From positions 10,319,501-10,383,500 of the forward strand of contig OX031072.1 of NCBI GenBank assembly GCA_943736015.1: 64,000 bases of DNA, written 5' to 3'. The translations under genes were made by a program, and so were the position numbers. This stretch comes from Tridacna crocea. Its lineage: Eukaryota; Mollusca; Bivalvia; Cardiida; Cardiidae. The notes beneath the pieces are model-generated. The model saw nothing but the letters and a program-made list of their open reading frames with translations. It searched no databases and was not told where the DNA came from. Shown piece after piece: positions 10,101-57,000 of the stretch. The number at the start of each line of letters is the position of its first letter. The first letter of the stretch is position 1.

Positions 10101-10900
10101 ATTAATCCCATATGTCATCCAAAAACAGACTTTCTGCCAAATAAGGCTTTGAGTCATCAATAAATGATGACTTAAAATAGGGTATGTTACGAGAGACCCC
10201 TCCTTCATGTATGGCTATGTCCAGATTTAACCCATTACCACTCAATCCCTACTTTTGACGCCCCTGAGAAAGAAGCCTTTTGAAAACACTGTGGGAAAAG
10301 GAGAAAATGCTGGTAACCAGCATTTTCTCCTTTTTCCACAGTGTTTTCTACCCTTTCCAGAACAAATTTCAATTTTTCAGTCACCTTTATTTTGTCGTCT
10401 GCAAATGCTTTCAATTTGGACCAGTCCAAAATTGTCTCGTGTGGTAATGAGTTAAATAAAATACCTAACAAATGCATTAGGGAAATGCATTGGTCACCAG
10501 CATTTTCTCCTTTTCCCTCAGTGTTTTCAATAGGCTTCTTTCTCAGGGGCGTCAAAAGTAGGGATTGTGTGGTAATGGGTTAAAGTCCTCTTCTTTAGTT
10601 TTCCATAAAATATAAACTATATGGTAGAGAGTTACATGTACCATGGCCCACAGGCTCTAAGTATAACTATTTTATGCTTTTCTTTCAAGTAACCCCAATA
10701 CACCATACAATGTCACAGAATATATCAAGACAACCTGGCCAGAGTTCACTGCCACCTGGGATTACTTACAGATCACGCCTGAAATGTCGACAAATTCAAC
10801 TAGGACAGGAATGAGAGCTCGTGCTGTGGAATTCTGGGAAAAAGTCTTACCAATGGCTACACATCACTTTTGGGATGATGAACCGCTTTACTTCAAATAA
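7122..10900 (+). CDS. Secreted carboxylesterase / cholinesterase-like protein, two coding exons
   Basis: Exon 1 is 7122-8668 (donor GTAAGT at 8669) and exon 2 is 10690-10900 (acceptor TTTCAAG, stop TAA). The join is in phase and gives 585 residues, a normal type-B carboxylesterase length. Residues 1-18 look like a signal peptide (hydrophobic run, cleavage near FS/ET), so secretion is likely. Family marks: EDCLTLNIYVP near 107-117, oxyanion motif HGGGF at 132-136, nucleophile Ser213 in FGGSAGASS, a likely acid Asp342 in SADG, and His474 in GHGDEISFVFG. The usual GESAG elbow reads GGSAG and the acid is Asp, not Glu; both variants can occur in active esterases. Several N-x-S/T sites fit a secreted protein. 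The substrate cannot be told from sequence. The 2-kb intron holds hairpin MITEs and a duplicated tRNA-like repeat. A CAG at about 7084 may be the acceptor of a 5' UTR exon. Confidence 0.9.
8690..8933 (+). mobile_element. Type-1 MITE in esterase intron
   Basis: It begins 21 bp after the donor. The right arm contains a short internal duplication of GGACAAGTC. Confidence 0.8.
9421..9678 (+). repeat. 258-bp tRNA-like repeat, copy 1
   Basis: It has an A-box-like TAGCTCTGTGGTTATGG and a B-box-like GAGTTTGAATCCC, as in tRNA-derived SINEs. A near-identical copy lies at 9873-10130 and a fragment at 10203-10486. It is not a functional tRNA: the acceptor stem is not apparent. Confidence 0.7.
9873..10130 (+). 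repeat. 258-bp tRNA-like repeat, copy 2
   Basis: Same length as 9421-9678 and almost identical. The B box here reads GAGTTCGAATCCC, closer to the consensus. Confidence 0.75.
10227..10455 (+). mobile_element. Type-1 MITE inserted in tRNA-like repeat
   Basis: TTAA ends and a paired CACTG/CAGTG core. It splits a third copy of the 258-bp repeat between GTCCAGA and ATAAAATACC; the intact copies read TTGA/ATAC there. Confidence 0.85.
10487..10583 (-). mobile_element. Type-1 MITE right half
   Basis: Starts at the palindrome centre and ends GGGTTAA, 107 bp before the second esterase exon. Confidence 0.75.
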
Positions 10901-11209
10901 ACAACAGTTACTGCTTCAGCAATAATGAACAGGATGAAAATACAGAAAAAAGGAATTGTTCATCTATTAATGGGGTGAAGTACTTTGTGAGAAAAAGGGC
11001 AACCCTTTCTTAGGACCACTTGCTTCTCTCTCAACATTGTCTCAGCATTACAAAGTATTCAAAGTACAAATGTTCCGAAATTCTACAACACTTGTTTCAA
11101 GTTCTCATATTGGACCTTTGATCACATTGATGTGAAACAATATTGCTTTTGTAGTACATGTATTACTCGAACAAATGGACCTGAAAACTGACCATCATGA
11201 AAAGTATAA
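10901..11209. other. Esterase 3' flank
   Basis: Likely 3' UTR and downstream sequence. AATAAA overlaps the stop codon; I see no other clear poly(A) signal and no other gene. Confidence 0.4.
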
Positions 11210-11444
11210 TCAACCCTTTCCAAAAGGACAAAGTTTTAGACCGGTCCAAATTAAAAGCACATGCAGAAGACCAAATAAAATTAACTCAAAAATTGAAATT
11301 TGTTTCCAGCAGGATAGAAAACATTGTGGGAAAAGAAGAAAATGCTGGTTACATGTACCAGCATTTTTGCCTTTTCCCACAATGTTTTCAAAAGGCCTCT
11401 TTCTCAGAGTCGTAAAAACCAGGGATTGTTTGGTAAAGGGTTAA
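11210..11444 (-). mobile_element. Type-1 MITE
   Basis: Left TTAA mutated to TCAA. The core loop is enlarged by ACATGT. Confidence 0.8.
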
Positions 11445-11662
11445 AGAGTAAATATTAATATTATCGGCTATTATTGGATGGTACGGAAAATCTGTTAACA
11501 GTAAATGTTGGGTTCTACCAAAGTCAATATGAAAGCTTTTGCTGATGACATGGATCAAGATCAGACTGCACAGAGAGTGCATCTTAGATCTATGTTATTC
11601 CTCACATATTACCAATTCAAACCAACAAAATCATGTTTATTTCGGGTATTTTAATTATCTCT

Positions 11663-11891
11663 TTAACCCATTACCACACAATCCCTACTTCTGACGACCC
11701 TGAGAAAGAAGCTTTTAGAAAACATTGTGGGAAAAGGAGATAATGCTGGTAACCAGCATTTTCTCCTTTTCCCACTATGTTATCTACTCTTCACAAAACA
11801 AATTTCAAATTTTCAGTCAGTTTTGTTTTCTTGTCTGTAAATGCTTTTGATTTGGACAAGCTTAAAATGTTGTCATTTGGTAATGAGTTAA
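11663..11891 (+). mobile_element. Type-1 MITE
   Basis: Complete, TTAA at both ends, with near-consensus arms. Confidence 0.88.
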
Positions 11892-12186
11892 GACACAATA
11901 AATCTATTAGCTGAATAAAGAGTTGAAAATGGTTCATTTATTCCTCATGCAGACTACAATAGCTGAAGCTAAGTTTGGGCAATAATCCAAGTGTGTAATA
12001 TATGGTATTATTTATTTTATGTCAATTTGTTCGAGTAATATGAGCAAACAACTTATTTTTGAAGAGGGATTTATGAAACAACCACAATAAACTTGGTATA
12101 AAAAAACTTTGAATGTCATGCCATTTCTTGATAGCACCATAAATTTCCCAGATGCTTGAGATTTTCTCAAAGAAGACAGTAATAAC

Positions 12187-12418
12187 TTAAACCTTTACCA
12201 TGCAATCCTGATAATGATTTTTAATTACCCTGAGGAAAAGCCTTTTGAAAACAGTGTGGGAAAAGAAAATGTTTTGTAACCAACATTTTCTCCTTTTCCC
12301 ACAATAATTTCCACCATATCAAAGACAAATTCTATCATTTCAGTGAGATTTAAATTGTCGTCTACAAACACTTTCAATTTAATACATTCTAAAATCATGT
12401 TGTTTGGTAATGTGTCAA
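12187..12418 (+). mobile_element. Type-1 MITE
   Basis: Left TTAA, right TCAA; the left core arm is shortened. Confidence 0.75.
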
Positions 12419-12428
12419 ATTGTCAAAA

Positions 12429-12881
12429 CTAGCTCTATCACAAATGACAAAATTTTAGTTTGGTCAAAATTTAAAGCATTTGCAGATGACAAATTAACCC
12501 TTTACCAAACGACAAAATTTCAGACTTGTCCAAATTGAAAGCGCATGCAGACGACAAAATAAACGTAACTCAAAAACTGAAGTCGCTTCCAGCAGGTTAG
12601 AAAACATTGTGGGAAAAGGAGAAAATGTTGGTTACCAGCATTTTCTTCTTTTCCCACAGTGTTTTCAAAAGGCTTCTATCTCGGGGTCGTAAAAACCAGG
12701 GATTGTTTGGTAAAGGGTTAAAGGCAGCCTAAATGACAAAATTTAACTTTCATAGGGTAAAAAACATTGTGGGCAAAGGAGAAAATGCTGGTTAACAGCA
12801 TTTTCTCCTTTTCCCGCAATGTTTTCAAAAGTCTTCTTCCTCATGGTCGTTAAAAGTTGAGATTGTGTGGTAAAGGCTTAA
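12429..12881 (-). mobile_element. Type-1 MITE, outer copy of a nest
   Basis: Its left arm stops at GACAAATTAA, then a second copy (12494-12721) intervenes, then the arm and core resume. The inner copy used a TTAA inside the outer one. Confidence 0.75.
12494..12721 (-). mobile_element. Type-1 MITE, nested inner copy
   Basis: Complete with TTAA ends, inserted in the arm of 12429-12881. Confidence 0.85.
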
Positions 12882-13057
12882 CCCTTTGTAATGACAGCCC
12901 TGCAAAATGAGACTTTTATAACATGGTGGGAAATAGAGAAATTCCTGTTATTTAGCCTTCAAAGACAAACACCATCATTGAGCCATACTTAATTTGTCAT
13001 GTGCAAATGCTTCCAACTTGTATAGGCATACAATTTTGTCATCTGATAGGGAATTAA
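12878..13057 (+). mobile_element. Type-1 MITE, core deleted
   Basis: Shares its left TTAA with the preceding element and its right TTAA with the next. The palindrome is mostly gone. Confidence 0.65.
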
Positions 13058-13282
13058 CTCTTTACTAAATGCCAAAATTCTTATTCAACTAAATTGAAGT
13101 TTTTGCAGGCAACAAAATAAAAGTAGCTCGAGTAATGATTTCCGTATTTGACAGGGTGGATAACATTGTGGGAAATGGAGAAAATGCTGGTAAGCAACAT
13201 TTTGTCCTTTTTCCACAATGTTTTTTCAAAAGCATTCTTCTTCAGAGGTGTTAAAACTCTGGACTATGTGGTAAAGAGTTCA
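13054..13282 (-). mobile_element. Type-1 MITE
   Basis: Third of a head-to-tail series; the right end is TTCA. Confidence 0.75.
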
Positions 13283-14180
13283 TAGACTTACAGAATGCTT
13301 TGGATAAACAGATTGTAATATGACACACAAATTTGGCACTATAAACACAGAGCAAAGAAAGCATGGTAAAATCTATGTTATTTTACATAGACTGACTTCA
13401 TTCTATATAGAGTAATGTCTTTCTGTATAAAGTAAGTACATGTATATAAATCAATGGAATATAATCTGCATCTGCGTTAATCAATGGAATATAATCAGCA
13501 TCAGTGTTTTTGCTCTAAGTTTGAATTTGTTTTTCCTTTCATTAAGAGTTGGTCATATTAAAATCAAAATACATGTACTGTAAACCAGAAAATGTTTGTG
13601 ATAAGCAATGTTCATGTTTCTTTCCTCACTGGCTTATTAGTGACAATTTAAGTTAGCAATCTTGATTGGGTCGCGAAATTAGCGAAACATTTCTTGCTTA
13701 GAACAAAATCATAAATACTGTACTCTGACCTTTCTTCATGACTCGGAATTACAGGTCAGATCTACTTATCAATTTCAATGTACATGTAAGTGTAAGCAAT
13801 ATCCTCCCAACATAACTTGAATAGCGACTAATGTTCGTGATTTCATGAGTTCTGGCTGAATAGCGGCAGATTATGAATGCGTCACATACCTTGTCACCAA
13901 TCTCGCTAACATAAAAAGCGCAAAATGATTTTCCTGATTTACAGTAATCTTCTTTTCTGTCATGACAAACATCACGCTGTGAGCTATGAGATGCAACAAT
14001 AATCCTCTCGGGCTATTGCCCTTGTGGATTATTTATTGTGCCTAATAACTTGGCATTGCAACTGTGGTTTATTAAAAGATAAACCAAGACAGAAAAAGAT
14101 TATTTCTTAATTCTACCATGCTTTCGTTGCACAGTGTTTATAGAGCCGAATTCACATGTCCATGTTACAATGTTTGAAAA
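13283..14180. other. No gene seen
   Basis: AT-rich. An imperfect 25-bp repeat of TCAATGGAATATAATC occurs at about 13452 and 13481. No credible exon. Confidence 0.5.
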
Positions 14181-14183
14181 ATT

Positions 14184-14318
14184 TCTGACATTATATTTTA
14201 GACTAGTCCAAATTAAATTTTTTTGCAGATGACAAATTCAATGTGGTTCAAACAATGAGGTTTTTCTTGGAAAAGACAGAAAACTTTGTCCTAACAACTA
14301 AAATGATGGGATAGGTCC
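14184..14318 (-). mobile_element. Type-1 MITE fragment
   Basis: Decayed left arm with GCAGATGACAAATTCA and a remnant of one core arm. Confidence 0.45.
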
Positions 14319-14546
14319 TTAATCCTTTCCCAAACAAGCCCTTGTTTTCATGTGTCCACAGTACGAGTCTTCTGAAAACACTGTAGGAAAAGGAGAAATT
14401 GCTTGTAACAAGCAATTTCTCCTTTTCCCACAGTGTTTCCTACCGATTTGGAGAACTTTCTGCCATTTTTATCAAATCTGAAATTGTCGTCTGCAAACTC
14501 TTTTAGTTTAGAAGAGTCTAAAATTTGTCGTTTGGGAAAGGGATAA
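14319..14546 (+). mobile_element. Type-1 MITE with altered paired core
   Basis: The inner core reads AATTGCTTG with CAAGCAATT in the partner arm, instead of AATGCTGG with CCAGCATT. Confidence 0.8.
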
Positions 14547-14551
14547 GAAGG

Positions 14552-14681
14552 GAGAAAAGATTGAAGGAAAAGAAGCAAATGCTGATCATCAGTGCATGAA
14601 TTTTCTCCTTTTTCCAGAATATTTTCAAATGTTTTCTACATCAGGGTCATTGAAACTCTGGATTGCGTGGTATTGGATTAA
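14552..14681 (-). mobile_element. Type-1 MITE right half
   Basis: The core is partly self-complementary. Ends ATTAA, shared with the next element. Confidence 0.6.
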
Positions 14682-14906
14682 CTCTTTACCACACAATCCT
14701 AACTTTTAACGAGATTAGGTGGACACCACTTGGAAACATTGTTGGAAAAGAAGAAAATGATGGTAACCTGCATTTTCTCCTTTTCCCACAATAATTTCTA
14801 CCCTATCACAGACAAATTTCCTCATTTAAGTTGCATTTAAATTGCTGCCCGTAACTGCTTTGAATTTGGGCAAAGTTAACATTTCCCTTGTGTGATAAAA
14901 GATTAA
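14678..14906 (+). mobile_element. Type-1 MITE at unit A left edge
   Basis: Its right half recurs at 26508-26614, so the duplication boundary falls near its palindrome. Confidence 0.8.
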
Positions 14907-15026
14907 TAATATAACCAAAACAGCTCCTCTATAAGAGTTCTCTTCTTTGGTTTAACATAACCTCACCACTTGATCTCTAACTTTATCAATAATATAACAA
15001 AAACAAGTTCTACATTTTACAAGAAC

Positions 15027-18000
15027 CTAAAGTTCCTCTATAAGAGTCCTCTTCTTTGGTTTGACATGCCCTCCCCACTTTATCTCTAACTCACTTTTAG
15101 ATTTATTGAAAAGATCAACGTCACTTTTAATGAGCGAATATTCAAGGTTCAATTCTGGCACTAAATCAAGCATACACATTCCGTAACTCTGTCCCCAACT
15201 TAACAAAAATTCACACTTTTTCTTGCACTGAAACAGTTGTTTTCTGTGAGTTCCCGTTTTCTCAGTTTCTGCTTTTCTGACACTGTGTTTTGTTGTTGAT
15301 TTATATGCAGTTCTGAAAACCTGAAATAAATCCGACACTGCTAGTAAAATATATCTCAGAGGATCGTCTTTGATTGGACAGGAAATAATCTCCAGCACAT
15401 CATTTAGGACTGATAAATTCTGTTCTACATTGGAGTCAAACCCACAATTCTTTGACTGTAATTTAGAAAAACAAGACTGTATTGAATCTCGCACACTTTC
15501 AAAATTTTGACCTTGACCTAGAACACTGGAAAGATTTATTAGGTCTTCAGCACTGTCAGTTGCCATGGAAACATGGTCCCCATTATGTAGTCTGCAAATA
15601 TATGCGTACGAGTACAGAACATTCAACAGATTATATCTTACATCAGCCGATGGTTTTGTTCTTAAAAGTTCTGATATTTTTGGAATTTCAGATTTAATAT
15701 TTGGTTTACTGCTGTCTTGTTTCACTGAATCCATTTCCATGACAACAGGAACTGCCTCTTTCCACCATGGAGTCCATTCTTCCACCAGGTTACCAAGACG
15801 ACCATCAGTGATCATGTGCTCAAATTCCCTCTTCTCCTGTAAAAGATACAAAAGAAGTAATGCAAGTGTATCTTCAACCTTTTTCTAGACAACCCTGTAT
15901 TTTTCACAGCCACCAAGAAAGCTTTTGGAAAAAGATTATGTGAACAGGTGGGTAGATAGAGTAGAAAATATTGTGGTAAAAGTGAAAATGCTAGTTTCAA
16001 GCATTTCACTTATTCCAAAAATATTTTCTACCCTTTCTTGTATTGGATGTATGGTGTTCAACGCCGTTTTAAACATTATTTCAGTTATATCTCGGGGGGC
16101 TAGTGCATCTATCTATGCATTCCTGGAGTTTCCGTTACCAGTATTTCACACAATTTTCCTTCCAAGCCACAGGCTGCTTTCCCACATGATCATCGTCAAA
16201 AAGATGGTCAGCAGTGGGAGAGGAATTGATTCTGTCACAGTGACTATCATCAATCCTTGGAAAGAAATTGGCTGAGTCAGGGGTCGTAGCCAGGGATTGA
16301 ACCCTGGACCCGTCTTCTAAAGTCCTGCAAGCTACCGATTGAACTACCAGGGCTTGGCTCTACCCTTTCTAGAACAAGTTTAAACTTATTAAAGACATTT
16401 CCGTCTGTCAGCTGTGAATAGTAACATATGTAAATTTTTGTCATCCTAGACTCTGGAAATTGGGACAAGTGACTTATGTGTATGTTTTCTGGAAGTTTAA
16501 ATTAGTTCTGTGCAAGACATCCAACTGTTTAACCCATTACCACACAATCCCTACTTTTGACGCCCCTGTGAAAGAAGCCTTTAGAAAACATTGTGGGAAA
16601 AAGGAGAAAATGCTGGTTACCAGCATTTTCTCCTTTTCCCACAATGTTTTCTACCCTTCACAAGACAAATTGCAATTTTTCAGTCACTTTTATTTTGTCG
16701 TCTGCAAATGCTTCTGATTTGGACAATCCTAAAATTTTATTGTTTGGTAATGAGTTAACCCTTTACCACACAACCCTCTCTTTTAACAACCCTGGGAAAG
16801 AAACGTTTTGAAAACATTGTAGGAAAAGGAGAAAATGCTGGTAACCAGCATTTTCTCCTTTTCCTACAATGTTTTCTAACCTTCCAAATACAAGTTTTAA
16901 TTTTGAGTCACAGTTATTTTTTCATCTGCAAATGCTTCCAATTTGGACAAATCTACTATTTTGTTCTTTGGTAAGGTTAATCCAAAACACTATCCAAAGT
17001 CAGAAAACATAAAAAGTTCCAGTTAAGTTGCTTTGGACCATGTACTATTCAATTATCATTGCATAATTGTTGTAAATGTTCCCTCTGGCTTGAATCAAGA
17101 CAGTTTCATCTTCCTACAACAGGTTGATCAAATGTATGATGTTTAACACCATTTTCAACATTAATCTAGTTATATCACAGCAGCCAGTGCATCTATCCAT
17201 CCTTTTCTTGAGATTCTTTTACCAGTGATCCACACAATATTCTTTTCAAGCCACTGGCTGCTTTCCCACACAATTGTTGCTACATACTAAGCTCCTACCA
17301 AAGATGTTTGCTTGTGTTAACTTAACCCTTTACAAGATGACAAAACTTTAGCCTCGTCCAAATCGAAAGCATTTGCACACGACAATATAAATGTGACTCA
17401 AATAATGGAATTTGATCTTCACAGAGTTGAAAACCTTGTGGGAAAAGGAGATTTCTGCTGGTTACCAGAATTTTCTCCTTTGCTCACAATGTTTTCAATA
17501 GGCTTCTTCCTCAATGGTGTTAAAAGTCGTCACTGTGTGGAAAAGGATTAAGACCTAAAATAACTTTCATAGCAAGGGGTTAAATACCTGTTCTGTTAAT
17601 CTTTCCCAAACTTGATCAGTATCCTTTTCAAGGTCAAGGTTATCAAGCCTTTCATGAAGGTCGTCACCATCATCAAGGTCAAGGTCATCTAGATCAGGAT
17701 CAGTTTCTGCTCTTGACAAAATATCCATTAGTTTTCTCTTTTCTTCAGGATCTACTGAACAATCTTTCAGACCTGGAAAGTACCATATCAAACACCAAGT
17801 TTTTGGACAAGATCAAATTCAAAGCATCTGCAGACAACGAATTAAATCTTGTTAATATGATGATTTCTGACTTTGCTAGAGTAGAAAAAATTGTGGGAAA
17901 AGAAGAAAATGCTGGTTACCAGCATTTTCTCCTTTTCCCACAATGTTTTCTGCAAGCTTTTTTCTCAGGGTCGTTAAAAGCCGGGATTGCTTGGTAAGGA

Positions 18001-19669: not shown

Positions 19670-19871
19670 CTCTTCTGTTTTCTTTGCCTGAAATATGAAA
19701 ATGAAAAGTGATCTATTCTCTGCAAAAAGCAGTTTGATTCATCAGCAAAAAGTATCAACCAAATTCAAACATCAGCCTACATGGCAAAATAACATCTAAG
19801 CTAGCCAGTGACTTAGGGAACAGTGTATCCTGTTAGGTGTATAAGTACAAAATTGAATCTGCAGGCGATGT

Positions 19872-20096
19872 TTAACCCTTTATTACACAATAACAACTTT
19901 TGACTGTCCTGTGGAAGACACCTTTTGAAAACATTGTGGGAAATGGAGAAATGGTAAACAGCATTTTCTCCTTTTTCCACTAAGTTTTCTACCCTATCAA
20001 AGAAAAATTGCACCATTGGAGCCACTATGAAATTGTCATCTGAAAATGCTTTCAATTTGGATAGGTCTACAATGTTGCCGTTTGGTAAAGGGTTAA
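19872..20096 (+). mobile_element. Type-1 MITE shared by units A and B
   Basis: Present at the same site in B (29352-29577), so it predates the duplication. The core has lost the inner AATGCTGG of one arm. Confidence 0.85.
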
Positions 20097-20116
20097 AATT
20101 CTCTATATTGGGACTC

Positions 20117-20353
20117 TTAAACCATTACCACTGTACCACACAATCCCTACTTTTGACACCCCTGAGAAAGAAGCCTTTTGAAAACACTGTAGGAAAAGGA
20201 GAAAATGCTGGTAACCAGCATTTTATCCTTTTCCCACAGTGCTTTCTACCCTTCCCAGATCAATTTTCAATTTTTCAGTCACCTTTACTTTGTTGTCTGC
20301 AAATGCTTTCAATTTGAACCAGTCTAAAATTTTCTCATGTGGTAAAGAGTTAA
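20117..20353 (+). mobile_element. Type-1 MITE, unit A only
   Basis: Complete, with an eight-base insert in the left terminus. Unit B reads GGACTCTTTAAATTATGG here (about 29594), an empty TTAA site. Confidence 0.85.
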
Positions 20354-21030: not shown

Positions 21031-21038
21031 TCATGTCG

Positions 21039-21544: not shown

Positions 21545-21552
21545 TCATGTCG

Positions 21553-31527: not shown

Positions 31528-32569
31528 AAAAAAGCAGTAAAGTCAATCATGTGTTCTCATGTCGTATTCAGTATTATGCCAGATCATTTTAGCCTTTAAT
31601 GAAGGCTTTATAGCTAATACCTTTTCTTTTAAAGGCCCAGAATAAAGAAATTATTCAAACAACAATCAAAGTAAGCAAGACGTAGTCATTTTCTTTGATG
31701 AAAATAACGTTTTCGTGTATGGCGGCTTTTAAAGCAAGGGAAATAACTTTGCAAAGCGGTAGGCCTAAAATCGCAAAGTCTTAAGCAGCCAACTACACGG
31801 AAAATAACATGTAGATCTACAGCAAAATTGCGAGTAAAGACGGTAGGCAATACATCTATGAGAGGAAACAGACTTTTTGACTTTTTAATAGATAAAAATT
31901 GGACTAGAATAAAGGAAACGAGAAATAGTAATGCTACTAAATATCATTTGTGGATTGATCTCAGGTTTGGAAACGGTGACCCCGGATTTCAGTGTGATTT
32001 TTATGGTCTAAGGGAGAAAACTCGTACAATCTTTTTCAATTAGTTATGAAGAGTACTCTCCCTTATTAACCCCCCCTTTCCAGTCACACCGAAACTTTAA
32101 GAACCGGTGTAAGGTTAATTTATGTCCTCACCGTCGATTGGAAATCTGGACCTTCTGTTAACCCTTATCCTGCTGAAAAAGTTAACTTTCAGTATTTTAT
32201 CTTTCAAAGGCAGGATGCTGATTGTATTATTTTAAATCAATTCATTATCTAAGGGAAGTGTTCAAATGAAAAGAGAGTGACCTCTCTTCTTACAACCTTC
32301 CACTTAAAAAAAAAGGGGGGGGGCGGGGGTAATAAACTTGAATCAACATGAATAAATCGGCAAAAACTATTGCTTTCATCATCCATTTATTAGCTTGGAA
32401 GATTCAGACCTGTATGATTTCACTTTCTGTCCCATGTCTCGTACGGTCATTGATCAAAGAAATGATTGGAATGTGACTATTCAGTTCATATTATCGATAT
32501 TTGTCAGTAACCTCGAAAACCTAATTGGACGAAAACGTGTCATTGGTTTATGGGTTTAAACTGTAATAA

Positions 32570-32836
32570 TATGGCTTGCAACACGGGAAAAGGGGCTTTC
32601 GGACATTTGCGTAAAGCGTCGTCTCGGATCAGCCTGCGCAGTCCGCGCAGGCTAATCCGAGACGGCACTTTACGACTACATTAGATTTTGTGCTACAGTA
32701 GACTTGTGTGAAACAGAAAATCACATAAAAACGGAAAGTGCCGTCTCGGATTAGCCTGCGAGGACTGCGCAGACTGATCCGAGACGACGCTTTACGCAAA
32801 TGTCCGAATGCCCCTTTTCCCGTGTTGCAGCCCATA
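32570..32836. mobile_element. TA-flanked MITE with CTTGCAACACGGGAAAAGG ends
   Basis: Near-identical 27-bp inverted ends begin TATGG. The interior has repeated GCCTGCGCAG palindromes. Absent from unit A near 22720. A second copy lies at 39435-39702. The TA duplication suggests a Tc1/mariner-type MITE. Confidence 0.85.
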
Positions 32837-33417
32837 TATAAGTAAGCTTATTTATCGTATACACTTGATAAATTCTATAATTATACATATTCTAAGTGCG
32901 CTCTTACTTTGATAACCGAATATTTATTGTTATTTCCAAGTTTGAATTTCGGCGGTCGCCTTGTTTACAAATGTGACAAAATGCAAGGGAGACTACCATC
33001 TATTTACAAAATAGTATCCACGAATGCAACTGGGTTTTCTTTCATTTGTCTTCTGTCATGATGTTTTAAGAAGAAACAGCATCTACAATGAATCCCGTAT
33101 AAAACTATGCCACAAATAATGACAGCTCTACGATTTTTTTTTTCTTTCGATACGGATCGTCTTCATTAACTTTCCGGAAATGATAAATTCGTCTTTGGTT
33201 TTATGCTGTCTACAAATAAAAGGGACGTAACTCTGATATTAAGGAAGTGATGTAGTATGTAGGAGTTTTCTCCCTTTGACCATAAATTTTTCGTTATTTA
33301 AGCCGTATACCTGTTCAGTTCCACACAGACCTTCCCACTGCCGAAAATCAATGTAAACAGTGTGGAAGGAAAATCAATGTGTATATGAAGAACAGGATCT
33401 TCTTAAAGTCGCAAACA

Positions 33418-39332: not shown

Positions 39333-39434
39333 GCTCTGTGAAAAAGGTGATTTTTGATGCACAGTTACATTTGAGCCATGCTCTGACAAAAAGGGGCTTA
39401 ATGCATCTCTGTGATACAGGATACCATGGAAGTC

Positions 39435-39702
39435 ATGTGGCTCACAACATGCGAAAAGGGGCATTCTGACATCTGCGTACACTGTTGTCTTGGGTCAGCC
39501 TGCGCACTCTGGGCAGGTTAATCCAAGACGACACTTTCCGTTTTTACGTCATTTTCTGTTTTGCGCAAGTTTGCTGAAGCACAAAATCCAACGTAGTCGT
39601 AAAGTGCCGTCTCAGATCAGCCTGCGCGGACTGTGCAGGCTGATCCAAGACAACACTTTACGCAAATGTCCGAATATCCCTTTTAGCGTGTTGCAAGCCA
39701 TA
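39435..39702. mobile_element. TA-type MITE, second copy
   Basis: Same family as 32570-32836; the ends are more diverged. Confidence 0.8.
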
Positions 39703-39857
39703 TGACTGTGGATCCATTCAGTCAAACAATCATCAGAATAATGAGCTAGACTGATACTATGACACACACGAAACTGAGCTACAGCCAAAAGTTTCCACAC
39801 AGGTCAGCCTGTGTGGACTGCACAGGCTGACCTGGGACACTACTTTTTGCAGATGCA

Positions 39858-40085
39858 TTAACCCTTTATCAAACGACAAAATATTAAACTGTCCTGATAG
39901 AAAGCACTTGCAGACAACAAAATGAACGTTAGTCAAAAATTGAAATCGGTTTCCAGCAGGCTAGGAAACAGTGTGGGAAAAGGAGAAAATGCTGGTTACC
40001 AGCATTTTCTCCTTTTCCCACACTGTTTTCAAAAGGCTTCTTCCTCAGGGTCGTAAAAACCAGGGATTGTTTGGGAAAGGGTTAA
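39858..40085 (-). mobile_element. Type-1 MITE
   Basis: Complete; the core has CAGTG paired with CACTG. Confidence 0.88.
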
Positions 40086-41315: not shown

Positions 41316-41531
41316 TTAATTCTTTACCAAACGACAAATTTTTGGACTCGGCCAAATTCAAAGCATCTGCAGACAACAAATCAAAGTTTGATAATACGAT
41401 GATTTCTGAATTTGAAAGGGTAGAAACTGTTGTTGGAAAAGGAGAAAATGTTGGTTACCAACATTTTCTCCTTTTCCCACAATGTTTTTTATAGGGTCAT
41501 CAAAAGTCGGAATTGTGTTGGAAAGAGTTAA
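41316..41531 (-). mobile_element. Type-1 MITE
   Basis: TTAA ends; the core has ATGTTGG paired with CCAACAT. Confidence 0.85.
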
Positions 41532-45000: not shown

Positions 45001-48000
45001 GGCTTTTGTCCAGTGGACTTTTGTCCGTTCCCCATATGCTAAGTATATGGACGTCGTCGGGTGAAATTATTCATCGTAACTATATTTAAAACCCTATCCC
45101 GCATAACACAAGCTTTTCACGACCCTGAGAAATATAGTTTTTATAAAATGTTGTAGAAAAGTGATAAAGTTCTGGTGACCACCTTTTTCTCCTTTTCCAT
45201 TTGCTATCATTTCTCATTTTTTCAAGTCACATTCAAAATTGTTGTCTGCAAAGGCTTGCAATTTGGGCAAGTCTAAAATTTTCGTTTGGTAATGAGTTTA
45301 TGAAGATTCAGTATTGTATAAGAAATTGGGGAAAAGGGAGAAAAATAACATTAATATAACTGCAATAGACCTTTCCTATGTTTATGTCTGATTGATCAAC
45401 TAATGTTTGTCGAATTCCTTGGCTAAGTTTTTTAACGTACTGGCTCGAAATCCAGGAATCGGTGGTTTGATTTATTTAAACTACTAAAGTAATATTTTTT
45501 GTTTAAAAAAAATCGTTTCAGGTTGAGGATGTGAGGCAAATAGACAGAGACAGTTTATTTACCAAAAACTGGGATATTATACATTTTCAATTTACAGCGA
45601 AAACCCTGACCTTGAAATAATATTTAAAATCTCTATAGTTGCATTTTTGTCATGTTCCTGTTTAAACTACCTTATAAATTAACTATCGTAATAACAAAAT
45701 TCAATTCAAATCTCAAACCTCCCATTCCTTCCAGAAAAAACAAAAGTTCGAGCACCGACTAACACACACGTGTCATAATTAAGTGTTTATCCCGTTCAGC
45801 CTTACGATGATATTACTTGTAATGGGTTGGAATGGTTAAAATCTGTTACACAGGATAAGTCTGTTCTAATTACTGGTCCTAAAAGATGCATTTTTCTGCC
45901 CGAACATTTTTTTTTTGTTTTCAAATGCATTACCCGATTTAACCGGTCCCAGTTTAACTGTACATTTGCCGTTGTCTGCGCATGTCATATTCTTCGAAGA
46001 TTTGACTGTCTTACATGACGCATCACTACTAGCCCCGAAAGCGGGCTGACTCTAATATTACGCTCTATAAAGTAGCAATGTTGAAAACAGCTTTTACGTA
46101 GCAATACGTATGGGGAGAAATGAGACCTGCTTTAGCAAAAGATTTCTCTAAATTGGTGATCATAGTTGAGTGAATTGCACAAGGTAGCGTTTTATTGGGT
46201 AAACCTTTTTTTTTTAATTTAAAGTAACGGTTGTCGCGTAGGAAAGTGGTTCGGTTCTGTAGCCAGGATGCCCATATCAGATAGATTAGTATTTATAGAA
46301 TGCCATCTAGCGGGAGATACTGTATATTTGCACTTATTTCTTTCGGAATGGGAGGGGGGTTGGTTTTCAAATTATTAAACCTTATCCTACTAATTAAATG
46401 ACACTTTAAAGCCGATCGTAAAATCCCAAATGTTATTTCATAGGAATATCTCGAAGAAAAATATCTCCGTATCGGACAGTTTAGATGATCTAGGATCAGA
46501 CTGCACGTTCTTCGTAGTCTGATCTTAGTCTATATTGTCTGCAAAAGATCATTGAGTCGCGCTTGGCAGCCTAAGGGTTAGTGCAGTCTGCATACGAAAA
46601 GTTCCATCAACATGCCCAATTGAAGATAGCGCTTATGGTACTGCTTTACTCTCTGAAGTCTACCGAAAGACTGATAGAACGACATTTCTTTTTTTGTGTG
46701 TGTATCTTCGAAAAAGGTGATCAATAAAACTACCGGTACAGCCGTTTTAGGTTTTTTTGACCTTTCAAAAATTTCGGAACTTAATATATAAGTGAAAAAA
46801 TTGCTAAAAATGCACATTCCGGGTATCATTTCGGATTTATTCATATCTATATTACTTAGAAATAAACCAAAATCCACCTACAAAGTAAATAAAAAACAAA
46901 TTTTCGATAAAAAAAAATGAAGTTCTCTTAAATTTAAAAGCGTTTTGGTCGACCCTCAGTGATAAAATCATTGTGAGATACAAATATATGTGTTCTGATA
47001 AAATACAAAGGAAGAGTATTCGGACACTACATCTATCCGAATATATAATAGGCAGTATTTAATGAACTAGGCCAATAAAATCGGGCACACCAGGCGCAAA
47101 TGGTTCAGAATGATGTCTATTAACTGTATGCAAAATTTGTTGCTTTCGTCCGGAGTGTAAACATTTTGCTAAAAAATCGAGTTAACAGACCGGACTAAAA
47201 AGAGTTAACACTTTTCATATTTTACAAAGGTACAGGTGCATTTTTTCTTTACACAAGACTAAAAACTTCTTCAGTATATCACTAAAGCCCATGATACGGG
47301 TACTCGTAAGAATTGTCTTGATGACATGATTGTTGTGAAATTAACTCCTCAATGAACAATCCCAAGTTTTAAAGACTCTGAAGAGAAAGGCCTTTGAAAA
47401 TATTATGGGAAAAGGAGAAAATGCTGATAAACAGCATTATCTCCTTTTTCCCATAATGCTTTCTGAACAGCATTTTCTCCTTTTTCCCATAATGCTTTTT
47501 GCCCTTCTTTACTCAAATTTCAGTTTAATAGTCACACTTATTTCATCCTCTGCAAGTGCTTTGAACTAAGAGTGACAGTAATCTACAATTTGTTGTTTGG
47601 TAAAAACTTCAGCCTTTTACAATCAATTGATCCCCCTCCTCCTTCCTAGATCTCTAATTATAATCCAGATTTACAAGTAATACAGACTACACATTAGTTT
47701 TCTCACCAGATGTGGGGGACGAATCTTGTCCTTGGATCCTTTGATTAACCAGTCTTCATGTAGGTCATGTAAACCTTCAAGGTATTCCTGGAAAAAAAAA
47801 AATCAATAATTTGACCCTTTTGGAAAACAAATATATGCACTATGCTCTGGCCAAAGGGGGTTTAATCCATATCTGTAGTGCATGGCATTAGGCAAGGCAC
47901 CACGTAGTAATAGATCTATGAAAATACATTTTTCTATCCAGGTCAGCCTGCACTGATTGTACAGGATGGCTTAGGTCTTGGGAAATAGTATTTAATCCTT

Positions 48001-51000
48001 TAACAGCCTATCACATGTTTTAACCCTTTCCCAAACGTCAAACTTTTGGACTGCACCAAATTGAAAGCATTTGCAGACGAAAATTCAACTCTTGCTGAAA
48101 AGATGATTTCTGTCTACGATAAAGTAGAAAACATTGTGGGAAAAGGAGAAAATGCTGGTTACCAGCATTTTCTCCTTTTCCCACAATGTTTTCAAAAGGC
48201 TACTATTTCAGACGCGTAAAAACCAGGGATTGTTTGGGAAAGGGTTAACTCATTACCATACGACAAAATTTTTTGTCCAAATTGAAAGCATTTGCAGACA
48301 ACAAAATAAAAGTGACCGAAAATTTCAAGATTGCTTTGTGAATGGCAGAAAACATTTTGGGAAAAGGAGAAAATACTGGTTACCAGCATTTTCTCCTTTT
48401 TCCCCACAATGTTTTCTAAAGGCTTCTTTTTCAGCGTCATCAAAAGTAGGATTTGTGTGGTAATAGGTTAACAACCTTGAGAAGGGATGTTTTTGAAAAC
48501 ATGGTGGGAAAAGGAGAAAATGCTGTTAACCAGCATTTTTTCCTTGTCCAACAATGTTTTTAAACTCTCATAGATGTCTGTAAATACTTTCAATTCGGAC
48601 AATTTTATTTGTGTGGTAAACAGTTTAGAAGTTCGAGCCAAATGAAAGAGCATGATGTTACCCCTAACTGACTAAAAGATGAAGTTCTATACAACTACCT
48701 TTACTTCGACTTACCATTGATATACCTTGCTCCTCTTTTCTATTTCTATCTAAAACTCTTTTGTAACAAACTTCTGGTGATGTCTTCAAGTACACTAAAA
48801 GAAGGAAAATACTATTTCATTGACAGATTGAATGTATGGTGTTTAATGCCATTTTCAACATTATTTGAGTTATATAGTGGCACCCAGTGCACCTATCCAT
48901 GCGTTTGTTACCTTTATTTTTTTTAACCAGTAATCTGCACAATATTTTTTCCAGTTAAAAACAATGGAGAGAGAGTGATTTTGATTTCAAAATTGAAAAT
49001 ATTAACTCATTACCAAACGACAATATTTTAGGCTTACCCAAATTGAAATCATTTGCAGATGACAAAATAAAAGTGACTGAAAATTTGAAATTTGTTTTGG
49101 AAAGAGTAGAAAACATTGTGAGAAAAGGAGAAAATGCTAGTTACCAGCATTTTGTCCTTTTCACGCAATGTTTTCTCAAGGCCTTTTTCACAAGGTCGTC
49201 AAAAGTAGGGATTGTGTGGTAATGGGTTAATTGTTCTACACTAAACCACATGTTGTGAGTACTCGATGAGACGATTCTAATGACTACTCACAACACAGAG
49301 TTTCGAAGAGAAATAATGGATTTAGAAAACCATCCTTCCCTCTTATCTGTAGTTTTGCAAAGCTACATGCCAAATTCAGTAGCCCTGAGCCTGTGGTTTC
49401 AGAGAAGATTTTTAAAAATGTTAATTTTTGGGGGGGTTTTCTTGCCATGGCAACCAGGAAATTCTGAAGAGGTCCATGGCAGGATCATTTCTGTGAAGTT
49501 TCATGAAATCTTGATGGGTAGTTTCAGAGATGAAGATGTTTGAAATAAAAGTAAATGCACGCAAGCATGGACAGACGGACACACGCACGATGGCCAACGA
49601 GCCATGACATAAGGCTGCTGGCCTTCGGCCAGTGGAGCTAAAAAATGACGTGTGATACCAAAGTTTATTTCACGCTTTCCAGTAGGATATCGAGAAATAG
49701 CAGTGAAAATATATTTGATGTTACATGGGTATGATCAGTGAAAATACTGACTTTTATATTCTAGTTACCTAGGTGAATTGCGTGTGACTCAGAATCAGAT
49801 GGAAATATGACATCATTTACCTTACATTTCTTGTGCTTGATGTAATATTGTGATGCATTGCTATGTGAAGAGGGTATGCCATTGGGAAAAACTGAAAAGA
49901 ATTGTACTGTATTTTGATAAAGTTCCTTCAAGACAGGGCTAAAAGCATGAAATAAAATGATTTTTGTTTTTCGGTGAAGGATCGAAATTTATTTTATCTA
50001 ATGAACAGCATCGGTAATATTTTCACTCGTTGCTGTGCCTCTCAAGAAAATATTACCAATGATTGCATTGATGACATAAATTTCGATGTTTCACAGAAAA
50101 AAACAAATATCCTGTATTTCTCACACAGTTGGAATTAAACACAAGCAGCAGGAAAGTTACAATGTAATAGTACAAATACACTCACCTATAAGATCTATGT
50201 TCAGCTGATTCTCCTGTGCAAGGAACTTAAACATCTCATGTAAAACAGCATATTCCATATCTGTCAAAAACCCACTGAAAAAAAGGGACAGTGTTATTCC
50301 TTTGCCACTGGAAAGAGTATTCCTATTTTTATTTTTTTTTTTTGGGGGGGGGGGGGCGGGGTACAAAGTAGATCTCCCTAAGATTGCACTAGATATAATT
50401 TTTTTTTTCCCATGTACTCCTATAGTTTATAAAATACCTGGGGTTTAATGTCTGGTTAAAAATATGGAGTTTAAAATTTTTACTAGATGGCAACATTTCA
50501 GACTTGTCCTACCTCTGCCAGCATATGCATGCTAAAAATAAAATGTTACTCAAATGATGAACTCTCTCTTCAAAAGGGCAGACAATGATGTGGGCAAAGG
50601 AGGAATTACTGGTTACCATCATTTCCTCTTTTTCCCAAAATGTTTTATGAAGCCTTGTTCCTCAGAATCGTTACAACATGTGACTGTGTAGTATGGGGTA
50701 TAAACCTTTTTATTTTACACTGATTATGAAGTAAGTTCTTAAATTTAATATTACAATATTAATCACTCTTGATTATAGCTTGCTGGACATCTTAGCCAGT
50801 TCTCGCTCCGTGTTGTAGTGAGTTTCAAAGGTTTAACCCACTCACCAAGGGATTCAAACCTTGAACTTTTCATGTGAGAGACCTAGCTCTAGCCATACAC
50901 TCCTATTTCCTACATGTATCATTAACTTTACCAGACTGGAAAATTTTAGCTTTGCTTAAATTGAAAGCAATTCCAGACAACAAATATGACTCTAAGCAAA

Positions 51001-54000
51001 ATCTTTATCAAATGGTTGAAAATTTTTCAGAGAAAAGGAGAAAAATACTAGTAACTAGCATTTTCTCCTGCCCAATCAATGTCTTCTAAAGGCATTTTTT
51101 CTAGTGGGTAATTAAAACTTAAGATTGTTTCATACAGATAGCTACTTGCCAACAACTGCACTTCTGTTTAATACCTGCATGTATATCAATTTCATATGTC
51201 ATTTTATAGTAAAAACTTTAGTCTCGTTTTACGCTGCTTTCAACATTATTTCAATCATATCACGGTGACATTTCACATATTCATGTTTCAGAGGTTTCAC
51301 CAGTACTACGCTAGGCTCTGAAGTGTCTTGCCCAAGGACACTCCTGTGAAAAAAAGCCAGTGGATCGAATAAGTCTTAAACCTGGAACCTCCTACACTTT
51401 ACCACTGAGCCACACAGGACCCTCAAAATCAGAGGCAGTTAAATGTCTGAGGCACTGATACTTAAATATTGAAAAATAATTTAAACAATAGGAATATACT
51501 TAACCCATTACCACACGAGAAAATTTTAGACTGGTCCAAATTGAAAGCAGTTGCAGACGACAAAATAAAGGTGACTGAAAAAATTAAAATTTGTTTTGGG
51601 ATGGGTAGAAAACACTGTGGGAAAAGGAGAAAATGCTGGTTACCAGCATTTTCTCCTTTTCCCACAGTGTTTTCAAAAGGCTTCTTTTTCAGGGGCGTCA
51701 AAAGTAGGGATTGTGTGGTAATGGGTTAAAACAACCAAAGTAATACTATCAGACCTTCCATGAAAATCAAAAGTAATGTCTACCTTTTCAACTGATTTTC
51801 CACAAAACAATACATTGCACTGTACAAGGATCTCTCCATTAATCTCAATGGCTTTGTCTGGAAAATAAGAAAATTACTGTACTTCTTTCCTTATTTACAA
51901 CATTTTTTTAGCCATTATTAACCCTTCACTGACCTATTCTGATCTTTACGACCTTGAGAGAATAGGCTATTGAAAACATTGTTGGAAAAGGAGAAACTGC
52001 TGAGAACCAGCATTTTCTCCTTTTCCTTCAATGTTTTCTATCCAATCACAAACAGCACAGTGTTCCTCTTTTGAAAAGCGTTGCCAGCAATTGTTGCTTA
52101 TAATATGATAAAGTAAAAGTGTTGGTTATTCTAAACCCTTGACATGAAGGTTTTTCATAACATTGCAAGAAACAAGAAAATGTAACATGCTTCTTTTTTT
52201 CAAAGTTTGTTTTGTCCCATAAAAAACAAATCCTGTAGCAGGAGCCATATCCAAGTCAACAATTTTTGTCATGGACTTTGTCATGAAGACTTAACTCTTC
52301 AACCTTTTACCAGACAATCCTAGTTTTCATGATCTTTGGTTGGAGGAAAAAAACTTTTGAAAACAGAGAAATTCAGTCTTTTACCCAAGCATGTTAACCC
52401 ATTACCACACAACCCCTACTTTTAACGCCCCTGAGAAAGAAGCCTATAGAAAACTTTGTGGGAAAAGGAGAAAATGCTGGTAACCAGCATTTTCTCCTTT
52501 TCCCTCAAAGTTTTCTACCCTTCACAAAACAAATTTCAAATTTTCAGTAACTTTTATTTTGTCGTCTGCAAATATTGTTGACTTGGACAAACCTAAAATT
52601 TTGTCATTGGGTATTGAATTAAATGACATCTTTATTTCATACTCCTGTATTGACTCTAAAGTTAACAGCAAGTGTTGGGCCATTTTAATAAAAAAAATGT
52701 TTACAGCCTTATGAAAGAGGGTTTTTAAACCAATAAGGTTGCTTGTATGACAACTGACATCAGTAAACATCTTTTCCAGGCAAATATCAATATTTGGGAC
52801 TCTAGCCTTGTTCTGAAAAATCCATATTTGGGACACCGCAGAGTCCAATATGGATTCAAGTATTATGTACTCACATGGTAGACTTTAAGCGATTTCAATG
52901 GGAGTTAGATTGTACATGTGAAGTAAAACCTTTATATTGCTGGGTATAGAGTTTATGACCTGGCTGTTTGATTTCACTCTTTACCACACAAAATTTCATA
53001 CTAGTGTAACCTTATTGAAATCATTTGCAGATAACAAACCCAGTGTGGCTCGACTGATGGGATTCATCTTTGAAAAGGTAGAAAAAATTGTTTTTAACTA
53101 GACTACTTACCAAGCAACAAAATTTTAGGCCTGTCCAAACTGAAACCATTTTTAGATGACAAAATAAACATGACTCAAAAATTAAAACTTGATTGTAAAA
53201 GAGTAGAAAACATTGTGGGAAGAGGAGAAAATGCTGGTTATAAGCATTTTCTCCTTTTCCCACAATGTTTTCAAAAGGCTTCTTCCTCTTGGTCATAAAA
53301 ACCAGGGATTTTAGGTATAGGGTTAAAGAAGAAATAAATGCTGATGACAGGCATTTTCTACTTTATCCACAGCGTTTCCATATTCTTTCTTCCTAAGAAC
53401 TGACAAACTATGATACATGATCTGGGCAAAGTTAATGGGGTAACCCTTTACTGCATGATCGGAGGTCTGTATTCACCAATCATTCTTAAGAGCGTTCTTA
53501 AGTCTTATTCCTCAGAATTTTGTCAGCCTGAAAGTAACAGAACTTCTGATTGGCTAAACCAAATGGTATACCCAATCACAAGTTCTGTTACTTCCACAGT
53601 TAGATTATCTTGTAGAGTAAGACAAAGAATCTTCTTAAGAATGGTTGGTGAATACGGACCCAGGAGTTTTATTCTCCCTAAAAGAGGTGGTTTTTGAAAA
53701 CATTCTGGGAAAAGGAGAAATCACTTGCAAGGAGCTTCTTTCCTTTTTCCACAATGTTGTCAACAGAAATACTACTCTTTCAAGGACAGATATCATCATT
53801 TGAGCTGTAATTAATTTGCCACCTACAATAGCTTGCAATAAGGAAGATTCCGTAATATTATCATACAGTCACTTACCTGAGGTAAGGAATGTGTTTCTTT
53901 TAAAGTTGTCATCACAAAGGATTGGAAAGTAAAACACCAACGTTTTGGATCTTCGTACAGCGTTGACTGTGAAAAGAGAGCAGAAGAATCTCAATAGAAG

Positions 54001-57000
54001 TGAAACTACCTAATTCAGGAGCCATGTCAGACTTTTCATAAACATTCAATCCCTACATATTGGATATTTGAATGCAAAAATATTGCTTACATCCGCAGCG
54101 CTCCAGATAGAGGGAGTGATTTTGATTTTAAAAAGACTTATTATTCTCCACGAAATCCTACATTGTGGGTGCTCAATGGAACTGTCTCATGGAGACGATT
54201 ATAATGAGTACCCACAACATAGGATTTCGAAAAGAAATGCTGATTGTAGAATACTGCCACTCCCTCCTAACTGGAGACCTGCATCATATTCATGAACTAT
54301 ACAAGTGACAGTTTAAACTTTCAACAGTCATGTTTCAACTGAAAACTGTTCAACAAAGAGTCCGTCTTTCATGGCAAATTATGGATTTGGACACTCAGTT
54401 GGGGATTTTGTCCATATTAAAATTGAAGATATTGTTGCTAAAACTGGAAATTCCATCGCCAGCATTTTCTCCTTTTTCACCAATATTTTCAAAAGCTTTT
54501 TTTTATCAGAGTCTTTAAAAATCTGGATTGTGTTCAAAAGTGTTTAACACTGTACAAAGAAACATACCAAAGGTTTGTGGCCCTTAAACTCTCTCCATTT
54601 CTGGACTGGCTCCTCATTAATCTGAAAGAAATAAAGCAACACCAGTAATGAAACTGCTGATAATGTTCATTCAGCGCCTATGTTGATTATAAAAATATCT
54701 TCAGCTTTAATCACTTTACCAGACATCAAAGTTTCAGCCTTGCGTTTACATTTGCATACGACAATTCAGCGTGGCGCAAAAGGGGCAAGTTTTCTTTTAT
54801 AGAGTAAACACATTGTGGGAAAAGGAGAAAAAGCTGGTTACCAGCATTTTCTCCTTTTCTCACAATGCTTTCAAAAGGCTTAATTGTGTTGTGAAGGGTT
54901 ATCACTTTTCCAAAGCCTGTGTTTTGATATCCTTGAGAAAGTAGGCCTTTGAAAACATTATGGGAAAAGAAGAAAATACTGGTAGCCAGCATTTTCTCCT
55001 TTTCCCACAATGTGAAGCGAATGATGCAGCGCAAATAAATGAATCTGTCTAAGAAGAGCTCAGTACACATTGTTGAAAAAGGAAAATGCTGGATACCACA
55101 TCTTTGCAAGCCTAGACTGATGATTCACTACCGTTAATCTACCCTTGGCAGATCGAGCTTGATTTTTACGTTCACCCGATATGCTTTTTCATTGGATGCA
55201 GCCAGCTCTAACTGCAACAAATGAAATCACTGGAAGCATTTCATCTTTGATAAAAATAGAACAACGTCGCTACCTTTCGAATCGAAGATAAACATGGAAA
55301 CCCACGTGGATGTGCTTATCGCTTCATGTGTGTTCGTAAGCGGTTTGTTAAACAGATCCATGTAGTGACCGTAACCTTGGCTCGCGAAGATGTGGATACC
55401 ATTACTTTTTCCTTTTCCCAATCTTTTCAAAGAGCTACAGACAGACAGACTGACAGATGAACAGGCTCATTCTATTAAGCACTAAAAGCCCTAAAAATTT
55501 AAAGGGGGGGGGGTTGGGGGAGTTATAATCATTTATAGGATTTACATCAGGTTTGGGAAAACACCAGTTTGGTAAATTGGACTTACATACATACAGTATA
55601 TTGATTGGAGGTTTTGGTTAAAAAGGTAGGCAAGTATCAAGTTTTATTTGCAATACTATTTTTACATCCAATACCTAGCTTCAACTTGTTCAAAGTTAAA
55701 CTCTTTAATTTCTGAGTATTACAAGAGTGTCTGTAAATCTGGCTTCTACCTCTGGAGACTGGCTTTTATTCCCAAGAAACAAATGAAAGCCTGGTATTGA
55801 GTATTTAAGTCATCATGTTGCATTAACCCTTTACTCCATAGATACTCATTTATACACACTGCTTTGGAAAACATTGTGGCAAAAGGTGAAATTGCTCGTG
55901 ACGAGCAATTTCACCTTTTGCCACAATGTTTTCTAAGCTATCAAAAGGTGTCATTATACACATAAGAAATGGCATCATCCTTGCTGTTACTTAGGGTCAA
56001 TTAGAGATACAACAGAAATGCCTTATGGGGTAAAGGGTTAAAACTACACAATTACTATGTAACTGAAGCTTACCTGTTTTTCTTTATATAAGTCCAACTT
56101 GCCAAATTAGTCTGTGACTGAAATATTGTTTACCTATCATGTACATGTTCCTTTTCTGAACATTCATAGAAAATAATGTCACCTGCTTATTACAAAAAAC
56201 TTCTCCTTTTCCCTCAGTGTTTTCTAAAACATCATTTGTGAAATGTAATGCCTGCTGAATCCCTTAGATGGAGGACAAATGATCAACTAAACAAACCTCA
56301 ACAAAGTAGTCCAGCTGTCTGAAATTCTCCAGGAAAGTTGATTTACCACTCCCAATGTTACCCTCCAAACATATCTGTAACATAAAGTGAATGAACAAAT
56401 GAACAAACATATGATGGAATGAATGGACAAAAGAACCAATGAATGACAAACCAATATTCATTCTTAATTATGGTTAGCCTTTTACTAGGCAATATATTTC
56501 ATCCTCATCCAACTTAACCCTTTAATCCATAGGTACTCATTTCTACACATTGCTTGTAGGAGCCTTTGGAAAACATTGTTGCAAAAGGTGAAATTGCTCG
56601 TCACGAGCAATTTCACCTTTTGCCACAATGTTTTCTATGCTATCAAAAGTGTGTCATATACACATAAAAAACGGCTTCATCCTTGCTGTTAATTAGGGTC
56701 AATTAGAGATACCACAGAAATGCCTTATGGGATAAAGGGTTAAAAGCAATGGCAGATGACAGGTTATTACCCTGAATAAAATTAACCCTGAATACATAAT
56801 ATATAAAGAAAGAAATGCTCGTGACCAGGATTAATGATTTTCTACTTTTCTGACAACAGTCTCTACCTTTTTACGACAGTGTGTTTTCTGTAAAAGTTTT
56901 CAACATGGAAGAGCCTGAAATTCTGTCCTTTTCAAATTTTTCTTTACTTGAATAAACATTTTTTAGTTCCGAGAACAGACTTGACTACAACTGTCCCGAC

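Follow-up and report, generated by a model that had tools for sequence, protein, structure and literature searches.

We analyzed a 64,000-nucleotide (nt) stretch of the Tridacna crocea genome (assembly GCA_943736015.1, contig OX031072.1, positions 10,319,501 to 10,383,500 of the forward strand), called the window below, which holds many copies of a TTAA-flanked, non-coding repeat with a consensus of 229 nt. The repeat consists of a left arm of 55 nt, a central palindrome of 67 nt, and a right arm of 107 nt, and the palindrome, which we call the core, forms a 33-bp stem around a 1-nt centre (stem pairs are numbered 1 to 33 from the outside inward). An original prediction, made from the window alone, held that base changes in one arm of this core are matched in the other, and that either hairpin repair or conversion keeps the arms alike or the folded form is selected. 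Our results indicate that matched changes recur across the genome at some stem pairs, on copies whose outer arms are unrelated.

The ends of the consensus read TTAACCC(A/T)TTACCA and TGGTAA(A/T)G(A/G)GTTAA, and patterns for these two termini gave 22 and 17 matches within the window. The repeat is uniform in size, short, and abundant, as is typical of miniature inverted-repeat transposable elements (MITEs), and it has short terminal inverted repeats that start with CCC, as in piggyBac-type elements. TTAA flanks both consensus ends, and two pairs of copies in the window each have a single TTAA in common, which fits the expectation for TTAA-targeted insertion. The repeat is thus probably a non-autonomous piggyBac-type MITE, an assignment made from its flanks and its CCC/GGG ends, since no matching autonomous element was found among the 10 piggyBac genes checked. 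A Kolobok nonautonomous element was considered and rejected, as Kolobok needs a TTAA target together with 5'-RR termini (PMC9587614), and the termini here are 5'-CCC.

The genome contains at least 118 matches to the piggyBac transposase family DDE_Tnp_1_7 (116 of 196 candidates were scored). The flanks of 10 representative piggyBac genes showed paired TTAA-CCC ends in five cases and no recognizable end pair in the other five, and none of these 10 genes bears the ends of the repeat, so that its autonomous partner is not among them. Several transposase copies have equal scores and long open frames (G000:C18:30428954, C3:66851558, and C4:69349889, with frames of 624 amino acids, and others), which points to recent activity of these elements.

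The window has 59 near-full cores, and twenty 10-kb stretches sampled from elsewhere have another 99 (200 kb; 6 of the 99 belong to one tandem array), from which we estimate about half a million copies in the genome (1.05 Gb in 31 contigs). The inner 35 nt of the core occur exactly at 166,719 genomic sites, and an exact 57-nt core with the matched change CACTG/CAGTG occurs at 9,352. Mean divergence in 172 copies, all of them located via their core, was 0.08 to 0.09 in the core, 0.15 and 0.24 at the two ends, and 0.23 to 0.25 in the outer arms.

Matched and single-arm changes in sampled copies

The sampled copies derive from 260 core matches, 186 of which were extracted because they had a near-full core and room for flanks (stretch L001 was skipped, as it duplicates the window). 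Fourteen of the 186, consisting of type-2 and other copies, had no clear orientation and were left out, giving the 172-copy set. A 143-copy set combines the window with the twenty 10-kb stretches after one tandem array was collapsed (five extra array copies dropped). Copies from L002 to L008 had been fetched by similarity and were excluded from all counts on 53, 140, 143, and 148 copies, and L149 to L168 entered no count.

Matched changes were found in all seven type-1 copies that had been cited as examples (Table 1), and several of these carry unmatched changes as well. The 53 window copies had 211 single, 21 paired, and 18 unmatched double cells, and the 143 copies had 529 single-arm, 68 complementary double, and 37 non-complementary double cells. 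Single-arm changes therefore dominate, and the rule that a change in one arm is met in the other is only partly confirmed: it describes something real but narrower than first stated. Both partner sites were changed in 105 cells of the 143-copy set against 39.5 expected (2.66 times), while sliding the partners by 1 to 4 positions gave 0.85 to 1.39 times expectation and slides of up to 6 in the larger 172-copy set gave a maximum of 1.59 times. Uniform correction between the arms was rejected as the cause of the low divergence of the core, as matched doubles make up a few per cent of the changes at a pair.

Most of the complementary excess in the 143 copies falls on inherited marks. Pair 8, at which CACTG/CAGTG arises, mainly marks a founder: of the 24 carriers in the random set, 16 are within 0.12 of the subfamily consensus, and pairs 8 and 26 cluster by outer arms, being common to 0.847 and 0.857 of the three nearest relatives. 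These observations favor an explanation in which a small number of source elements acquired matched changes long ago and were then amplified, with no ongoing process between the arms. We regard this as an unlikely account of the whole, as the data in the next two sections show matched changes and centre flips that do not follow descent.

Recurrence of matched changes across the genome

Genome-wide counts were made with patterns that left one stem pair free and required an exact match at all other positions of the 35 nt. Single-arm changes numbered 7,450 at pair 28 and 7,059 at pair 22, and doubles of non-partners (28 with 22) numbered 195 and 139 in two configurations, on average 2.1 times the expectation under independence; this control gauges unequal copy age, and expected doubles were scaled by it. 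Pair 22 gave 407 doubles against a control-scaled expectation of 158. Extrapolated from the first 50 of the 407 sites in contig order, about 293 of them are complementary against 65 expected (about 4.5 times), while the non-complementary class, about 114 against 93, is in slight excess; in the 50 themselves, 36 were complementary (permutation P < 0.0001). Pair 31 gave 396 doubles, and 31 of the 50 listed were complementary against 21.3 by permutation (P = 0.0024, permutation only). At pair 28, there were 230 doubles against 176 expected, with about 129 complementary against 95 (ratio of about 1.4, extrapolated from the 50 listed). Two of the three stem pairs counted, 22 and 31, thus carry an excess of matched changes, and pair 28 does not clearly do so.

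Sixty of the genome-wide doubles, 46 complementary and 14 not, were examined with their flanking context. The likeness of outer arms among copies with the same matched change was that of label shuffles (P = 0.175 for all 60, P = 0.91 without the 14 non-complementary ones), and a nearest-neighbor test on the same doubles found no clustering (P = 0.86 and 0.81). Since pairs 22 and 31 have their matched changes on unrelated outer arms and the centre flips described below are unclustered, founders are not the sole cause, and we reject them as such for these two pairs and the centre base. Other matched changes occur in 27 of 148 copies and are likewise unclustered (P = 0.39), though chance doubles may account for many of them. 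The original prediction was to fall if paired changes across the genome were no more frequent than a few founders would give; at pairs 22 and 31 they are more frequent, and at pair 28 there is little or no excess.

Two individual copies provide cases in point. L035 has T/A at pair 22 and L060 has T/A at pair 28, and neither pair was present in any of the 20 best-ranked relatives of the respective copy (20 of about 40 listed, 92 to 94% identical).

Inversion of the centre base

The single base at the centre of the stem was compared in 140 oriented copies, after seven extra tandem-array copies had been dropped. It is A in 106 and T in 24 of the 140, and in type 2, it is G or C. At other core A sites, A-to-T changes occupy 55 of 2,788 cells, so that the flip at the centre is about nine times more frequent, and T accounts for 24 of 34 changes at the centre versus 55 of 158 elsewhere (P = 0.0002). 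Copies with a centre T are not clustered, since their nearest relatives share the T at a frequency of 0.167 versus 0.163 by chance (P = 0.50; the founder mark at pair 8 reaches 0.847 in the same comparison). With the tandem-array copies still included, the flip had seemed partly inherited (P = 0.0035). Of the 40 near relatives examined for L035 and L060, two (L092 and L118) also have a private centre T.

The centre thus flips to its complement irrespective of descent, which matches the prediction of spacer inversion by template switching. In yeast (PMC8604942) and in RNA genes (PMC8794818), template switching is reported to homogenize arms and to invert spacers, and inversion of the spacer in place is seen here in an unclustered and complement-specific form. 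The hairpin repair or conversion that had been proposed therefore gains partial support from the recurrence seen at pairs 22 and 31 as well as from the centre flips, but not from pair 28.

A probable common origin of types 1 and 2

Type 2 had been predicted to keep the plan of the type-1 core with paired G-to-C and A-to-T swaps. This is borne out by the type-2 copy at 55823 to 56041, in which four pairs depart from the type-1 consensus, each of them in both arms (14 G to C, 21 A to T, 26 A to T, and 31 G to C). The accompanying statement that the outer arms of the two types are unrelated is too simple: the type-1 consensus and the type-2 copy at 56514 to 56743 agree in length (229 and 230 nt), in left arm (55 and 55 nt), in right arm (107 and 108 nt), and in their TTAACCC ends. 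The left arms align above shuffles (z of 4.7, and of 2.9 without the first 14 nt), and the right interior does not (z of 0.7); in another type-2 copy, the left arm is 44 nt long. Types 1 and 2 are better explained as one element with a fast-changing interior, which accounts for the common layout better than independent capture of the core would.

Of the five distinct pair changes mentioned in this analysis (8, 14, 21, 26, and 31), four exchange a base for its complement (G to C or A to T), so that strong and weak pairs stay in place. This is suggestive of a role for stem stability, and the swaps are too few to test.

Cores of copies that spread

To separate changes in individual copies from those in lineages that multiplied, 148 copies were grouped by single linkage at 85% outer-arm identity, giving 10 clusters. 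Five of these (44, 6, 5, 3, and 3 copies) have unrelated flanks, with neither flank alike in 939 of 946, 15 of 15, 10 of 10, 3 of 3, and 3 of 3 pairs, which indicates that they spread by transposition. In none of the five does the majority core contain an unmatched change, and both three-copy clusters have matched changes at pairs 8, 26, and 31. In the other five clusters, flanking DNA is alike on one or both sides, which indicates passive duplication, and each has 6 to 10 unmatched core positions. The simplest reading is that copies with a damaged core rarely transpose again.

These latter five clusters (L010, L028, window copies 19927/29407, window copies 27824/37438, and L022_6385/L018_8383) had at first looked like lineages spreading despite an unmatched core, but they have flanking DNA in common and were set aside as copied passively. 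L010 contains, at about 1279 to 9690 (G000:C1:25001279 onward), a tandem array with a unit of about 1.67 kb and one diverged-core MITE per unit, six copies in 10 kb, and the core and flanks of L028 are similar to the unit of this array. Tandem arrays of this kind can imitate clades in repeat statistics. The window pairs 27824/37438 and 19927/29407 look locally duplicated, with flanks in common.

Common and rare variants differ in the same direction. Among the 40 near relatives, variants present in two or more copies occupy 6 core cells versus 130 outer cells. In the 143 copies, variants seen one to three times number 100 in the core versus 61 in the outer arms, and variants seen 15 or more times number 5 over 66 core sites versus 94 over 126 outer sites, with the limit that outer-arm variation includes subfamily marks.

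A similar core common to families with diverged outer arms could also come from gene conversion among copies that homogenizes the core across families. This is quite improbable, as conversion would erase private core changes too, which occur near the outer rate, and it does not predict complementary doubles and centre flips on unrelated arms. Selection on a folded transcript, as a small RNA or a processing signal, would suit a long perfect stem and lineages with matched changes, and it is the most doubtful of the explanations considered here. Single changes that give a G.U pair showed no significant strand preference in the 172 copies (157 on the plus strand versus 191 on the minus strand, P = 0.077), the stem closes on one base, the window has no Rfam match at gathering thresholds, and private core changes again lie near the outer rate. 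The earlier suggestion that the folded form is selected thus gains partial support insofar as transposed clusters have consensus or matched cores, but its RNA branch found no support.

Copies in the window

The copies discussed above and their neighbors are listed in Table 1. The right stem arm of the copy at 47341 to 47606 is tandemly duplicated (47420 to 47498, 36-bp unit), which is possibly a trace of replication slippage in the palindrome.

Table 1. Copies of the repeat in the window and the state of their cores
Copy	Position in window	Strand	Core
Type 1, CACTG/CAGTG founder subfamily	10227..10455	+	Core 10282-10348, centre A; pair 8 C/G
Type 1, separate lineage^a	14319..14546	+	Core ~14406; pairs 8, 26, and 31 matched, pair 12 unmatched
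Type 1, centre T (flipped)	16529..16758	+	Near-consensus core, one A inserted; one TTAA common with next copy
Type 1, pair 12 A/T	16755..16980	+	Core centred ~16842; left TTAA 16755-16758 common with left-hand copy
Type 1, pair 8 changed to G/C^a	39858..40085	-	Core centred ~39996
Type 1, pair 29 T/A matched^a	41316..41531	-	Core ~41455; also unmatched changes in one arm
Type 1, pair 10 A/T matched^a	47341..47606	+	Core at 47396; other changes unmatched
Type 1, CACTG/CAGTG subfamily	51500..51729	-	Core 51608-51674, fully matched; pair 8 C/G
Type 2	55823..56041	+	Core 55867-55933, perfectly matched, centre G
Type 2	56514..56743	+	Core 56569-56635, centre C (flipped versus 55823-56041)
^a Outer coordinates from the original prediction.

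Other repeats lie in the same window. A distinct long palindromic repeat at 32569 to 32837 and 39431 to 39707 has arms of 110 to 129 nt that are 80 to 88% complementary and is unlike the TTAA element by eye. A 111-bp repeat in 3.6 copies at 63446 to 63847 resembles, by eye, coding FG-type repeats as in nucleoporins, and 59234 to 60015 is minisatellite-like, with periods of 15 to 65 bp.

Discussion

We lean, without strong conviction, toward a DNA palindrome that is constrained in source elements and in which matched changes are supplied partly by template switching. The palindrome would be needed in cis for mobility of the source elements, and lineages would then change mostly by matched pairs. 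In individual copies, one arm may template the other, or the centre may be copied from the opposite strand, as in the correction of quasipalindromes. Between types 1 and 2, the interior would have diverged while ends, spacing, and core stayed.

What selection would act on in such a palindrome can be answered in two ways, neither of which we would rate above a tentative possibility. One is that the folded form, a cruciform or a symmetric core, is selected as a cis-signal and not its sequence, so that the element would evolve through compensatory pairs as RNA genes do but without an RNA, the matched changes being supplied by template switching. The other is that the core is a dyad-symmetric site for a protein, either the transposase or a host factor, and that symmetry and not folding is selected, an idea that is compatible with template switching as the source of matched changes. 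A protein site would suit the finding that the core is kept in spreading copies, and piggyBac ends hold 19-bp palindromic sequences, while the cysteine-rich domains of piggyBat bind an imperfect palindrome (PMC11707139). At 67 nt, however, the core is long for one dimer site, and type 2 is symmetrical despite differing at 4 of 33 pairs, so that what is preserved is pairing more than a fixed recognition sequence.

A number of observations weigh against a constrained palindrome with copying between its arms, and some of them concern the sample itself. All copies were located via their core, so that badly diverged cores would be hidden, and L035 and L060 were selected as little-diverged copies. 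Private changes in the core occur at a rate slightly below that of the outer arms (singletons among the 40 near relatives, 20 of 2,680 core cells versus 73 of 6,060 outer non-CpG cells; P = 0.055). Once pairs 8, 26, 30, and 31 are removed from the 143-copy sample, complementary doubles number 26 against 12.4 expected, with slid controls reaching up to 1.68 times expectation, and non-complementary doubles number 35 against 13.9, which exceeds the slid controls. After removal of the founder marks, this sample thus has no excess specific to complementarity (26 versus 35), and as both classes of doubles are in excess, it cannot by itself prove matching. Pair 28 has little or no excess, with 28 of 50 doubles complementary (P = 0.16 by permutation, P = 0.44 against the letters of single changes), so that copying between arms is not uniform along the stem. 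The non-complementary excess and the behavior of pair 28 limit our confidence in arm copying. The matched pair of L060 could be a chance double, given the small excess at pair 28, and a relative of L060, L112, has the arm-B half of the change alone, which could be an intermediate or chance. Among lineages, independent matched cases are few (the pair 8 subfamily, the 8/26/31 lineage, and type 2), the two clusters with pairs 8, 26, and 31 may be one event, and one member of that lineage, L012_6797, has an unmatched T/G at pair 31.

The repeat is related in appearance to several described systems. The nearest published element that we found, the coral MITE CMITE of Acropora (PMC2872659), has TTAA duplications, CC[C/T]T-type ends linked to piggyBac, and tandem arrays. 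The internal region of CMITE varies less between families than the ends do, just as the core is less diverged than the ends here, and its authors propose that this region aids transposition. CMITE differs in being about 100 bp long, with an estimated 1,600 copies in A. millepora, compared with about 229 bp and an estimated half million copies here, and the main text of PMC2872659 mentions neither palindrome nor hairpin, whereas our repeat has a perfect central palindrome with matched changes. The ends of piggyBac and piggyBat share TTAA insertion and palindromic sites inside the ends, but those sites are 14 to 19 bp long and lie near the tips, while our repeat has a single 67-nt palindrome flanked by arms of unequal length. 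The template-switch systems resemble ours in matched arm changes, a spacer inverted in place, and recurrent parallel events; they concern coding genes across yeast strains or RNA genes across species, whereas our repeat supplies more than 10^5 nearly identical templates within a single genome, and one of its three pairs counted lacks a clear excess. The open-licence literature searched yielded no description of template switching or matched changes in the core of a MITE.

Two-sided changes in a stem could take two chance steps or a single template-switch event, an unsettled question that has mostly been addressed in RNA genes, in which mutation and selection are difficult to tell apart. With more than 160,000 exact inner palindromes in one genome, most of them presumably idle, the T. 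crocea repeat offers a natural experiment on matched mutations, in which the rate of arm copying, spacer inversion, and the dependence of both on distance from the centre are measurable. It also provides a testable case of whether an internal palindrome, besides the ends, governs the success of piggyBac-type MITEs.

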